Of a DNA stretch of 64,000 nt, positions 44,545 to 59,783 are shown one piece after another. Every line of letters starts with the position of its first letter. The first letter of the stretch is position 1. The notes under the pieces are model-generated. The model saw only the letters and a program-made list of their open reading frames with translations. It was not told where the DNA came from and ran no database searches. A program made the translations under genes and the position numbers. Location: assembly GCA_001661515.1 (NCBI GenBank), contig LUVW01000015.1, positions 205,553 through 269,552 on the forward strand, read 5' to 3'. Source of the stretch: Capniomyces stellatus. Lineage: Eukaryota; Kickxellomycota; Harpellomycetes; Harpellales; Legeriomycetaceae.

Positions 44545-44626
44545 GTCAGTGTGTCCGAGCGGTTAAGGAGATAGACTTGAAATCTATTGGGCTATGCCCG
44601 CACAGGTTCAAATCCTGTCGCTGACG
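44545..44626 (+). tRNA. tRNA-Ser (UGA)
   Basis: A complete cloverleaf with a long variable arm. The 7-bp acceptor GTCAGTG pairs with CGCTGAC; D arm TCC..GGA; anticodon stem ATAGA/TCTAT with loop CTTGAAA (anticodon TGA). The variable arm is TGGGCTATGCCCGCA and the T arm CAGGTTCAAATCCTG. No intron. Discriminator G, as expected for serine. Confidence 0.95.
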
Positions 44627-44633
44627 ATATCTT

Positions 44634-44704
44634 GCGTAGATGGTTTAGTGGTATAATTGCCGCCTGCCACGCGGCAGACCCGGGTTCGATTCCCGGTCTA
44701 CGCA
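44634..44704 (+). tRNA. tRNA-Gly (GCC)
   Basis: A 71-nt cloverleaf. Acceptor GCGTAGA pairs with TCTACGC, discriminator A. Anticodon stem GCCGC/GCGGC with loop CTGCCAC gives anticodon GCC. T arm CCGGGTTCGATTCCCGG. It starts seven bases after the tRNA-Ser, and the spacer has no T run. Confidence 0.96.
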
Positions 44705-44708
44705 TTTC

Positions 44709-53384: not shown

Positions 53385-56014
53385 ATGTCAGCTGCCACTG
53401 CTTCATCTGCGTCAAGACCAGTAGAATCTTCATACAAAAACAATGAAAAACCAATGCAAGTTCGTCTCAGCAACATTGTAGCAGCTAGAGGTATGTATAT
53501 CAAAAAGAAAAAGAAAAAGAAAAAGAAAAGAAACAGAAAAAGAAAGAAAGAACAGAAATAATAAGAAAAAAAAAAGTCCGGCAACGATTCCAGTGATATT
53601 CTTGATTGCTTAATCGCAACTACACTTGGATTACTGGTTGTGATTACTGATATACTAATCCAAGATTATTTTATTAATTATTGCTATTATCTTTATTTTT
53701 GATTTATTTAGCTGTTGCCGATGCCATCAGAACAAGTTTGGGTCCCCGTGGACTTGACAAAATGATTGAGACTGGACGCAAAGAAGTTGTAATCTCCAAC
53801 GACGGTGCTACAATAATGAAACATATTGCTGTTTTACATCCAGCAGCCCAAATGGTAAATTCAGCTATGCCAATGTATACATTTGTGACTACTGTTAACG
53901 CAACACTTACAACACAATCTCGCTGCTTGTTTGTTTGTTTGTTTATTTTCCATTTTAACATATATTGGGTCGCTATTAATCTGTTTTTTTTTAGCTTGTC
54001 AACCTATCAATGTCCCAAGACTCTGAGGCTGGAGATGGAACCACTTCAGTTGTTGTGTTTGCTGGAAGTTTGTTGTCCGCTTGCGAAAGATTATTATCAA
54101 AAGGTAAATAACACCACTGCTTGTACAAGCCTTCCATTTTATAAATACGGCAGTTTTTGTTACTGTTGATGCTGTTGGCGCAGCTAAACTAACAGTTGAT
54201 TAAATCCCTTACTATCCCACTTGCAATAAATCAAGGTGTCCATCCAAGCAGAATTGTCCAAGGTTTCCGCAACGCCTCAAAGGCAGCCGTAGAGATCCTG
54301 GAGTCGATTTCAATTCCTGTTTCTTTGGAAGACCGGGAATCGTTGTTGAAGAGTGCATCCACTTCGCTTGGATCAAAGGTAAGTCTAGCTAGATGAATCA
54401 AACTCCTTCCAAGTATGCTATACTACCATTAACACAAGTGTAGCTTTTAACAATAACACAAACTATGATTGAACTCAAATCTAGATTGTCAGTCAGTACT
54501 CCTCGGTCCTTTCGCCAATTGCTGTGGATTCGGTTCTTAAAGTTGTTGACCCCAAAAACGAACAAAACACCACTTTGGATGATATCAGAATCGTCAAAAA
54601 AGTAGGTGGAACCATCGAAGACACCATGCTATCAACAGGCCTTGTCCTCAACCAAAACGTCATTACTTCAGCCAATGGCCCAAGACGCATTGAAAAGGCC
54701 AAAATTGCTTTGATTCAGTTCCAGCTATCACCACCTAAACCAGATGTAATTATCAACATTTTATTACCACATTAGTATTGACCCTGACTGTGTGTATTAA
54801 ACTTAAAAAAAAAGAAATGTTTTGATTTGTCATTGTTGTCAAAATTTGTTATGGTTGTCAAAATTTGTTATGGTTGTCAAAATTTGTTATGGTTGTCAAA
54901 ATTTGTTGTGATTATTATAACTGTGTGTTTGTAGATGGACAATCAAGTGGTTGTCAACGACTACCGCCAAATGGATCAGATTCTTAAAGAGGAACGAACT
55001 TATCTTTTGGGCCTTGTTAAAAAAATCAAAAAGGCTGGATGCAATGTTTTGTTGATCCAAAAGTCCATCTTGAGAGATGCTGTCAACAACTTGTCACTCC
55101 ACTTTTTGGCCAAGTTGAAGATTATGGCTGTTAAAGAAATAGAACGTGACGAGGTTGAGTTTTTGTGCAAGGTAAGCTGAATCATCTAGTTATTTTAAAC
55201 CATAATATAATATATTGTACTGCGTTAAAATGTGTTCTAATAAATGAAATGGCGGTGATAAATAAAATAGACTTTGGGTTGTAAGCCAATTGCTGATATC
55301 GAGTCATTCACTGAGGACAAGTTGGGATCAGCTGATTTGATTGAAGAAACAGAAATCAATGGAGCCAAGTTTATGCAAGTAACAGGAATTAAGAACCAGG
55401 GAAGGACAGCCTCGATAGTTTGTTTCGGATCAAACAACTTGATCCTGGAGGAGACAGAACGATCGCTTCACGATGCGCAGTGTGTGATTAGGTGTTTGGT
55501 GAAAAAGAAGTCGTTGGTAGCTGGTGGCGGATCACCCGAAATAGAAATCAGTCAAAGGCTGATGGAATTGTCAAAACTGCAGACTGGATTTGAGTCGTTG
55601 TGCTACAGCTCTTTTGCCGAGGCAATTGAAGTCATTCCAACAACTCTTGCGGAAAACGCTGGGCTTAACCCCATTGCCATTGTTACCGAACTGCGTAAAC
55701 GACATGCTGACGGCGAAAAACACGCTGGAATTAATGTGCGCAAAGGTACCATCACCAACATTGTTGACGAGAATGTCCTGCAGCCTCTCTTGGTTTCTAC
55801 CAGCATCATCGAACTTGCAACCGAAACTGTTTGTATGATCATGAAGATTGATGATATCGTAAGTAGCCCTCTCATTCAATACCCCCTCCTTTTTTCTATC
55901 ATTGTTACTGCTATTGCCCATTATTCTTGTCTGGTCCTTTATTATTGCTATAGATGGAATGCCGCTAAACTTTTGCTTTATTTTTATCTGTTTACTTAGG
56001 TGCAAACCCGCTAA
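53385..56014 (+). CDS. CCT4: T-complex protein 1 subunit delta (CCT4)
   Basis: Subunit of the cytosolic TRiC chaperonin that folds actin and tubulin. Exons 53385-53490, 53712-53854, 53995-54103, 54236-54378, 54485-54745, 54935-55171, 55271-55858 and 56000-56014; 533 residues. Motifs: [50 protein letters not shown], the ATPase loop [36 protein letters not shown] (delta type), [25 protein letters not shown] and [20 protein letters not shown]. Delta identity comes from KPxQ(V/I)R near the start and the QxR C-terminus. The last coding exon is only 15 nt (VQTR and stop). Six acceptors end TAG; exon 4 uses AAG. Confidence 0.96.
54836..54910. repeat. 19-bp tandem repeat inside CCT4 intron 5
   Basis: Three full copies of AAAATTTGTTATGGTTGTC from 54841 plus partial flanking copies. 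It fills the centre of the intron and lies clear of both splice sites. Confidence 0.9.
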
Positions 56015-56362: not shown

Positions 56363-58261
56363 TTACAAGCTTTCCAAGTTCTTCTTGCTTAAAACATTGC
56401 TTTTCAGTTGTCCGCAAGCTGCCAGTATATCCGACCCTCTCGGTGTTCTGACTGTAGCCGAAACTCCCTTCTGATCCAAGATATTCAAAAACTCTGCTAC
56501 CCTGTTTGCTCCAGATGGCTTGAAAAACGATCCTGGCCAAGGATTAAATGGTCTATTATCACAGCAAGGTGAATACTACATCAGATTGAATCATATTTAT
56601 TTATGTTATATTTCGTTTGTTGAAGGCTTACATTAGATTCACATGCGATGGAATTCCTTTTATCAGTTTTGCAAGCCGCAACGCATCTCCGTCAGTATCA
56701 TTAACATTATCCAACAGCACATACCTACACATACATATACATATACACACGTACACAGTTATATTTAAACGTCCTAGCTCACACATAAACACATAAACAC
56801 ACACACACATAAACACACGCACACATATAAACCAAACAAAACTATTGCCATATATTCCAAACTCTTACTCAAAAGTCACTCGCCGGTTCTTTTCTTTGCT
56901 AACTTCACAGAAATTCCGAATACTGCTCATCAGCTCGCTAATCGGGTATGTCTTGTTTATTGCCATCAACTTTGACCTCAACAGGTCATTTGTTGCATGC
57001 AACGATATCGCCAACTGCACTCCCAACTCTGATCCCACCTTCTCTATCAATGGTGCTATCCCGCTTGTCGAAACTGTAATCTTGTGTGACCCCAATCCAA
57101 TTCCATCCTTATCCGTCAATATCTCTATTGCCTTCTTTACCTGTCTATAATTCAATAACGGCTCACCTATAACCACACAACCACACAATTTCGTTTATTA
57201 CATTTCTTTACTCTATTCTTATTACTAGCAACTTGCTTTTTTTCTTTCTTTACTACCCATCTATTGCTTTTTTTTTTTTTTTTTTTTTTTTTTTTNNNNN
57301 TTTTTTTTTTTTTTTGCTTTGCACTTACCTTGCCCCATAAATACTATATTTGTTATCATTCTTGGTTGGTTTGGTTTCCTCTTAAAATCTGCTAAAAAAT
57401 GCGCTGCTGTCATGTACTGCCCCAGTATCTCCCCGTACTTCAAACTTCCAAGCAGTTTCTGTGTCCCCGTATGGCAGAACTTGCAGCTCAACGAACACCC
57501 TATTTGCGACGACACACACAACGTCCCCCTTCCTGGCTCTGGAATGAACACTGCTTCAACCACCGTTCCCGCTCTTATTATCTCATTAGCGTCATCTCCC
57601 TCACTCTTTACCCTACTCGCCTCGTCTTTCTCTACACTCTTTAACACATCTTCTACTAATTTTTCACTCTCTTTATTCCCTAGTTTCTCTAATATGTCTA
57701 TCTCTCCCTCTATCCTTTCACCCTCGCTTTTCCCCTCATCATTATCTACTGACTTTGCTCTAGTAGCTCTTTGCTCTGGCCGTTTAAATCCTACCAACAG
57801 CTTCTTTGTTCCATCCACCGAAGTCTGTGTATTAATCGTTGTCCCATAATTTATAGTATACTTGCTTGATAGCTCATGTCTCATTTTATCCGACAGGTTT
57901 GTCATTTCGCTAAATTCAACCGCACCTAATGAAAAAAAAGAGTTGTTTTTGCTTTTATTTCTACTCACAATCTCGCTTCCCATTTCATTTATCTCTACTT
58001 CGTTGTGAAGCCTGCATAAACCTGTACAAAGTAAAGCACAATGCATGTATTTCCCTACTCACCTTTCTTATATATCCATTCGTAAATCTGACGTGATATA
58101 TACGGCTTCACGTTGGCTATTTCATTTCCTATCTCCTCGTTTATCTCCTCTGCTCGCAACCCCAACAGATTCTTCTTGCTAACCACATTTCTGTCCTTTG
58201 AAATTGTCGAGTACAACTTTCGGGTAATTCCCCCTATTTTACACCTTTCAATCGTTTTCAT
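56363..58261 (-). CDS. RlmN/Cfr-family radical SAM adenosine-C2 methyltransferase
   Basis: Bacterial RlmN methylates C2 of A2503 in 23S rRNA and A37 in some tRNAs. Minus-strand exons: 58261-58063, 57925-57329, 57166-56869, 56724-56632, 56552-56363; 458 residues. The start [20 protein letters not shown] is basic and could be a presequence. HhH-like N-domain: [34 protein letters not shown]. Radical SAM cluster [18 protein letters not shown] (CxxxCxxC), then [63 protein letters not shown] and [17 protein letters not shown] carries the C-terminal catalytic Cys of RlmN, so the enzyme should be competent. About 65 charged residues (from [10 protein letters not shown] to [10 protein letters not shown]) are inserted between N-domain and core. 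All four acceptors are TAG; an assembly gap lies in intron 2. Confidence 0.92.
57268..57315. other. Poly-T tract with a 5-N assembly gap (inside an intron)
   Basis: About 28 T, then NNNNN at 57296-57300, then 15 T. It lies in intron 2 of the RlmN-like gene, so the coding sequence is not affected. True tract length is unknown. Confidence 0.95.
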
Positions 58262-59275: not shown

Positions 59276-59783
59276 ATGTCGTACCCAAATGCCAAGAAAA
59301 ACAACAACCCTTATAACGGAGAGGCTGCCTATGTCAAGTACGAAAAGAAAGGCGGAAGGGGAATGCTGGAGAGAATGCAATTGATTTATGAAACCACTAC
59401 CGCTTTATATATGCTCGAGCCATGGGAAAAAGCTATTGTCAGTAAGTACTCCAACACATTTAAACTTAAACCATAACTCTCGCTTTACCGTTATTACTGA
59501 CGTTGATTTGAAATTTGCACTATTATCTATTATCTATTCCTTATTTTTTATGCCATATCTTATATTTGTTACTCCTCATTCTCTACTACATATTCCTTGC
59601 TATCTGTCTCGCACATTATATTTCTTTTTGCCAACACCTCACACGACTATTTATGCTTATGTGTATCCAATGTTAGATGTTTTTGTGCTTTCGCTTGTTG
59701 TATTCTTTTTCTACTCTGCGGTCGTCATTTTCCCTTCACAGATAAATTTCATGTACAAAAGGGCATGCGAATACTTGTTTTGA
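59276..59783 (+). CDS. SPTSSA: Serine palmitoyltransferase small activating subunit (ssSPT family)
   Basis: ER membrane protein that binds and stimulates serine palmitoyltransferase, the first enzyme of sphingolipid synthesis; human ssSPTa and yeast Tsc3 have this role. Exons 59276-59441 and 59677-59783 (GTAAGT..TAG); 90 residues. The core YETTTALYMLEPWEKAIV matches human ssSPTa YQYLLVTALYMLEPWERTVF almost residue for residue. After the intron comes one membrane span (LSLVVFFFYSAVVIFPSQ), matching the human span before FMPQH, and the tail NFMYKRACEYLF. The N-terminus is hydrophilic and slightly longer than in human. The acceptor was chosen at 59676 because only this one joins the membrane span in frame. 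Confidence 0.9.

Follow-up and report, generated by a model that had tools for sequence, protein, structure and literature searches.

An intron-split RlmN gene of a Harpellales-like fungus belongs to a fungal and amoebozoan clade nested among alphaproteobacterial RlmN proteins

RlmN is a radical-SAM enzyme, best known from bacteria, that methylates adenosine in RNA at carbon 2 (m2A). The bacterial enzyme is described as acting through a methylated cysteine: a second SAM turns the methyl group into a radical, C2 of the adenine is attacked, and another cysteine resolves the adduct; in E. coli, m2A is given as arising at A2503 of 23S rRNA and at A37 of six or more tRNAs (PMC9692996; PMC7694415). 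According to one of these reviews, Met176 stabilises the cysteinyl radical (PMC9692996). Cfr (PDB 9p0p) shares the radical SAM superfamily and the type of mechanism with RlmN but methylates C8, not C2. Among eukaryotes, the Toxoplasma protein TgRlmN is described as tail-anchored in the outer mitochondrial membrane, which ties a eukaryotic RlmN to this organelle (PMC5749711). Duan et al. (2024) reported that RlmN-like proteins occur in some fungi only, most fungi and animals being without them, and placed the fungal proteins in a clade VI near alphaproteobacteria that was described as exclusive to fungi (PMC10838301). In the titles and abstracts covered by our literature search, which had subscription papers outside its scope, we found m2A reported from bacteria, from chloroplasts and from the cytosolic tRNA of plants but not from mitochondria; m2A in fungal or amoebozoan mitochondria and an amoebozoan RlmN clade were likewise not found there.

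The window, by which we mean the whole stretch of 64,000 nucleotides analysed here, is part of a 1.08-Mb contig in an assembly of 24.5 Mb and carries an RlmN gene of five exons on its minus strand (Table 1). Splicing and translation from ATG to stop yielded a product of 458 amino acids whose gene limits, 56363-58261, match at both ends those of an earlier sequence-only reading, and all four introns are of the GT...TAG form, with the TAG acceptors that this reading had named. The only run of N in the window lies within the second intron. The product reaches 337.7 bits against the RlmN model TIGR00048 (cut-off 290, E 6.9e-101) and also exceeds the cut-offs of the RlmN_N domain PF21016 (44.8 bits, cut-off 24) and of PF04055 (58 bits). 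Its best PDB match is E. coli RlmN 3rf9 (E 5.1e-77), to which the core aligns over residues 188-452 of our query. Together with the CxxxCxxC cluster, whose cysteines correspond to E. coli C125, C129 and C132, and with Cys442, the TIGR00048 score bears out the claim of a complete RlmN-type protein. The reading had also named a GQGEPL motif, which is present but better worded as MGQGEP, the bacterial form being MGMGEP. Compared with E. coli RlmN (3rf9, 3rfa, 5hr6, 5hr7), the window protein thus has in common the family, the cluster cysteines, both catalytic cysteines and M176; it differs by a Gln at Met178, an N-terminal extension, a loop of 76 residues in place of five and a nuclear, intron-bearing gene.

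Table 1. Features of the RlmN gene and its neighbours, in window positions.
Feature	Position	Strand	Basis or content
RlmN exon 1	58063..58261	-	ATG at 58261; presequence-like N-terminus and RlmN_N domain (PF21016, residues 31-91)
Codons 1-27, basic N-terminal extension with possible processing motif RKLYST	58181..58261	-	Charge count and motif
Intron 1, 137 nt	57926..58062	-	Splicing
Exon 2	57329..57925	-	Loop insert, Cys203 (E. coli C118), CxxxCxxC (C210, C214, C217), MGQG
Loop insert, 76 codons, residues 112-187, Lys/Glu-rich	57564..57791	-	E. coli RlmN: 5 residues (98-102)
Codon CAA of Gln265, counterpart of E. coli Met178 in MGMGEP	57330..57332	-	Alignment map; split among 310 proteins
Intron 2, 162 nt	57167..57328	-	Contains assembly gap 57296-57300
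Exon 3, radical SAM core	56869..57166	-	Splicing, domain match
Intron 3, 144 nt	56725..56868	-	Splicing
Exon 4	56632..56724	-	Splicing
Intron 4, 79 nt	56553..56631	-	Splicing
Exon 5, C-terminal part, Cys442 (E. coli C355) in AACGQL, stop	56363..56552	-	Splicing, alignment map
Neighbour CCT4 (T-complex delta), C-terminal coding part	55271..55860, end approximate	+	PF00118 E 5.2e-59
Neighbour serine-palmitoyltransferase (SPT) small subunit, first exon	59276..59441	+	PF11779 E 5.5e-8; donor from sequence

RlmN is nuclear and native to this fungus because it lies between CCT4, found downstream in tail-to-tail orientation and with T-complex protein 1 subunit delta as its top PDB matches, and the SPT small-subunit gene, which stands head to head about 1 kb upstream. 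These PF00118 and PF11779 neighbours, together with the four introns, sustain the earlier argument from position against contamination. It is hardly credible that the sequence stems from bacterial contaminants, is a dead gene or encodes a resistance enzyme of the Cfr type. Its identity of about 55% to alphaproteobacterial RlmN over the core would suit contamination, which is however rejected by the spliceosomal-type introns, the fungal neighbours on a 1.08-Mb contig and the clade that the protein occupies in our trees, while a dead gene is at odds with zero in-frame stops over 458 codons and with the retention of all catalytic residues. Identity as Cfr was rejected as well, since three Cfr models scored far below their cut-offs (183.8/530 for NF000424, 179.3/468 for NF011024 and 178.8/550 for TIGR04432). 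A search of the assembly with TIGR00048 matched only the five exons of this gene, and a second RlmN was not found by it.

A database protein of Smittium mucronatum (P0005) has the start of the SPT small subunit fused to RlmN, and the two genes are apparently neighbours in that species too, but on the same strand, whereas they are head to head in the window; this suggests that either the genes stayed linked through an inversion or the gene model was joined wrongly. Four Coemansia RlmN models (P0014, P0021, P0032 and P0037) carry an attached ubiquitin-conjugating (PF00179) or HD domain and are probably fusions of neighbouring gene models.

The window protein stands out by its loop, in which residues 112-187 replace residues 98-102 of E. 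coli RlmN. Measured between two conserved patterns, which leaves out the 60 of 311 proteins that do not match them, this loop has 86 residues and is the longest of 251 proteins; the median is 16 and the maximum 23 in 175 bacterial-type proteins, and the median is 17 in 76 MGQGEP proteins. Because the next longest loops come from Furculomyces (46), Smittium culicis (31) and S. mucronatum (30), the loop appears to have grown within Harpellales-like fungi. A retained intron is an unlikely source of the insert, as its 228 nt hold no in-frame stop, whereas 12 and 13 stops occur in the two remaining frames. The chance of zero in-frame stops was 0.0023 in shuffles, the stretch has a single GTRAG donor, and relatives carry smaller inserts at the same place.

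How widely is this enzyme distributed? A protein search with the window protein scored 7998 relatives, and among the best 120 listed the top matches were from Smittium culicis, Furculomyces, Martensiomyces, Coemansia and Kickxella. Next came Basidiobolus and fungi of the Mucor, Mortierella and Umbelopsis types, with alphaproteobacteria and one Dictyostelium interspersed at lower ranks. Altogether three protein searches were run, each with the best 120 of about 8000 scored matches listed, so that absence of Dikarya or animals from these lists proves nothing. Those with the Dictyostelium protein and a mixed profile added dictyostelids, Arcella, two Balamuthia proteins and a transcript whose name suggests Physarum, along with two eukprot proteins, which were used in the trees, and metagenome proteins. 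The rarity implied by the sequence-only reading was overstated: orthologues occur in many early-diverging fungi, and a fungal clade is already in print (PMC10838301), which is why a fungal RlmN as such is not new. Against the refuting case that this reading had set, orthologues routine across all fungi and of known function, the outcome is divided: they are indeed frequent in early-diverging fungi, but are reported to be absent from most fungi and have no known function.

The window gene is an ordinary intron-split RlmN and a new member of this known fungal family. Its nearest relatives are RlmN of Smittium culicis (P0001) and Furculomyces boomerangus (P0002), both genera of the Harpellales, with which it forms a clade supported at 100/98 to 100/99; identity to the Smittium protein is 61% over the kept columns, and the loops measure 31 and 46 residues in these two species as against 86 in the window. 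Judged from our own sampling and not from the rows of the published tree, the window protein almost certainly belongs to clade VI of Duan et al. (2024), which is likewise fungal and close to alphaproteobacterial RlmN (PMC10838301). The published clade is called fungi-only, and the main text of that paper makes no mention of Dictyostelium or of any word beginning with amoeb- (PMC10838301); here, amoebozoan proteins fall within the same clade, with dictyostelid, Arcella and Balamuthia proteins as sister to the fungal ones and with MGQGEP common to both.

This motif divides the family. Among 310 fetched proteins, 86 carry MGQGEP and 224 MGMGEP, and every named fungus and amoebozoan belongs to the former. 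By a count of the listings, the 86 comprise 57 named fungi, nine named amoebozoans, one protein labelled Schistocerca, five eukprot entries and 14 unnamed proteins, while all named bacteria listed fall among the 224; MGMGEP was also found in 142/142 bacterial loci (113 + 29, a few being one gene twice). In the window protein, M176, both glycines and the glutamate of the bacterial MGMGE are kept and M178 alone is replaced by Gln. A loss of the radical-stabilising Met176 was considered and rejected on this numbering, and we treat Gln at Met178 as a lineage variant.

Our trees revealed that fungal and amoebozoan RlmN form one well-supported clade nested among alphaproteobacterial RlmN. In five trees with differing bacterial sampling, the fungal rows formed one clade (with two unlabelled rows inside it in the 40-row tree), the window protein lay inside Fungi, and Fungi and Amoebozoa-type rows were united. 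This joint clade comprised 31 rows in the first tree (99/97) and 31 in a second one (98, quick method), for which 16 of the 30 earlier alphaproteobacterial loci rows had been exchanged for others; it was recovered again with ten gammaproteobacterial-type outgroup rows (31 rows, 100/99), in a fourth tree (40 rows, 99, quick method) and after masking the middle residue of MGxGEP and omitting two long rows (29 rows, 100/99). A long actinobacterial-type outgroup row that had fallen among the alphaproteobacteria in the second tree was omitted from later ones. All 15 of 15 fungal rows formed one clade at 100/99 among the alphaproteobacteria, and Amoebozoa as a group were weakly supported in some trees (87/74 in the masked tree, no resolution in the second). 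As to bacterial neighbours, 586 loci were confirmed in the genome collection with search patterns biased to the type of the window protein, and the best 80 of these were all from Pseudomonadota and nearly all labelled alphaproteobacterial; 229 of 289 alphaproteobacterial genomes match the search profile.

Because RlmN of fungi and of Amoebozoa fall together among alphaproteobacteria, our data favour one old, endosymbiont-derived origin, for which the mitochondrial ancestor would be the simplest source, although the donor cannot be identified from the tree. Two broad forms of a separate origin of the fungal and the amoebozoan genes were rejected by AU tests whose constraints were chosen after viewing the trees: uniting Fungi with all alphaproteobacteria apart from Amoebozoa gave p 0.001, and uniting Amoebozoa with all alphaproteobacteria apart from Fungi gave p 0.003. 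In its place, an early fungus or an ancestor shared with Amoebozoa might have received the same enzyme by transfer, from a Rickettsiales-like or other alphaproteobacterial endosymbiont, or one of these eukaryotes might have passed it to the other. We regard this as rather unlikely, although horizontal transfer has been proposed for eukaryotic RlmN generally (PMC10838301). A protein from a Rickettsiales MAG (P0218) was sister to the eukaryotic clade in the first tree (97/93), and grouping Fungi with P0218 alone was not rejected (p 0.075), so Fungi might have obtained their gene independently from a donor of this kind. However, P0218 lost this position once more alphaproteobacteria and gammaproteobacterial outgroups were added, the broader constraints on separate origins failed, and Fungi and Amoebozoa-type rows were sister or one clade in 5/5 trees. 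The alphaproteobacterial backbone is poorly resolved, with the branch order among alphaproteobacteria largely without resolution, and mitochondrial descent is therefore not separated from an old transfer. Of the two ancestries that the sequence-only reading had left side by side, mitochondrial or by transfer, the single fungal and amoebozoan clade thus favours an old endosymbiont or mitochondrial origin, with the donor left unnamed.

The N-terminus of the window protein has 7 K/R in its first 25 residues and resembles a mitochondrial presequence, as the earlier reading had hinted, although the 2 D/E in the same stretch speak against one. Beyond this gene, the first 25 residues average 4.13 K/R and 1.36 D/E in 85 MGQGEP proteins, compared with 2.28 and 3.03 in 218 MGMGEP proteins, and a net charge of at least +3 was observed in 67% of the former and 3% of the latter (p = 1.3e-25, not to be taken at face value as the sequences are related). 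The motif R-x(1,2)-[YFLC][AS][AST], set after viewing the sequences and which we take to be a consensus like that of mitochondrial processing sites, occurs in 20 of 55 MGQGEP extensions including that of the window (shuffle mean 5.1, maximum 12 in 500) and in one of 114 bacterial-type extensions (shuffle mean 1.0). It is missing in the remaining 35 of the 55, among them Smittium and Furculomyces; 31 of 86 MGQGEP and 104 of 218 MGMGEP proteins, which have no extension of at least 14 residues before a recognised core start, were left out of this comparison. In their composition, the extensions of the fungal and amoebozoan clade look like mitochondrial presequences and support import. By its description, the tail-anchored TgRlmN of Toxoplasma is set apart from the window protein, in which the presequence-like segment is N-terminal (PMC5749711). 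COX1 was not matched in the assembly, and the same control query was matched in 8 of 14 genomes. An enzyme acting mainly on A37 of cytosolic tRNA, as has been proposed for plant RLMNL3, would accord with the description of m2A in plant cytosolic tRNA and of an RlmN-like protein excluded from chloroplasts (PMC10838301). Such a role seems improbable here, since RLMNL3 was placed in another clade, III (PMC10838301), and since the basic, often acid-free extensions point to mitochondria.

Gene structure, family membership, conserved catalytic residues and the place in the fungal and amoebozoan clade among alphaproteobacteria were computed directly. We consider it probable that this nuclear gene is functional and encodes a mitochondrial RlmN which makes m2A and is of alphaproteobacterial, probably proto-mitochondrial, descent. 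The putative presequence would carry the protein into mitochondria, where, by analogy with the bacterial enzyme, one SAM would methylate Cys442 and a second would be cleaved at the 4Fe-4S cluster held by C210, C214 and C217, turning the methyl group on Cys442 into a radical. This radical would attack C2 of the target adenine to form m2A, with Cys203 helping to resolve the adduct. Likely targets, again judged from bacteria, would be A37 of mitochondrial tRNAs, the position equivalent to 23S A2503 in mitochondrial rRNA, or both. The history would most likely be that of one gene in the common ancestor of fungi and Amoebozoa which was later lost in many lineages. More tentatively, and with somewhat less than even confidence, we propose in general that a proto-mitochondrial RlmN with Gln for Met178 persists in early-diverging fungi and Amoebozoa, where it still makes m2A in mitochondrial rRNA and tRNA, and that it was lost in many other lineages.

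If the mitochondrial reading is true, some fungi and amoebae bear a bacterial-style methyl mark that yeast and animals lack, located at or near the mitochondrial peptidyl-transferase centre. The value of this mark would then be testable in eukaryotes, with a bearing on the mitochondrial effects of ribosome-targeting antibiotics, and one more gene would be traceable to the mitochondrial ancestor. The window gene itself looks like one of the ordinary housekeeping-type genes that a Harpellales-like fungus has, coding for an old inherited enzyme and not a genome oddity. What is new beyond the known fungal RlmN is the ancestry shared by fungi and Amoebozoa, the Gln signature, the presequence-like extensions and the longest loop.

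Further radical SAM proteins encoded in the assembly include LipA-, HemW- and MiaB-like ones, in keeping with a fungus in which several bacterial-type enzymes have been retained. The HemW-like gene (C3:412386-412862) scores 239.7 bits against TIGR00539 (cut-off 205.4; L001). A methylthiotransferase gene of the MiaB/CDK5RAP1 type is split at C6:318337-319604 (L002, L005, L153-L155), with exon matches to TIGR01574 of at best 139 bits, each exon being below the whole-protein cut-off; its product would act on A37 of other tRNAs.

Two database entries deserve mention. Balamuthia mandrillaris has two different RlmN proteins (P0185 and P0200), perhaps one per compartment. An RlmN labelled Schistocerca gregaria (P0236) groups with Arcella-type amoebozoan sequences and possibly comes from a contaminating amoeba of the locust, a suspicion only, for which a literature search yielded no proof. 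In the window itself, numerous short A/T and TA/CA simple repeats lie around and inside the introns between 56235 and 59175, including the run that contains the sole assembly gap, and two adjacent tRNA genes, Ser(UGA) and Gly(GCC), were detected on the plus strand at 44545-44705.
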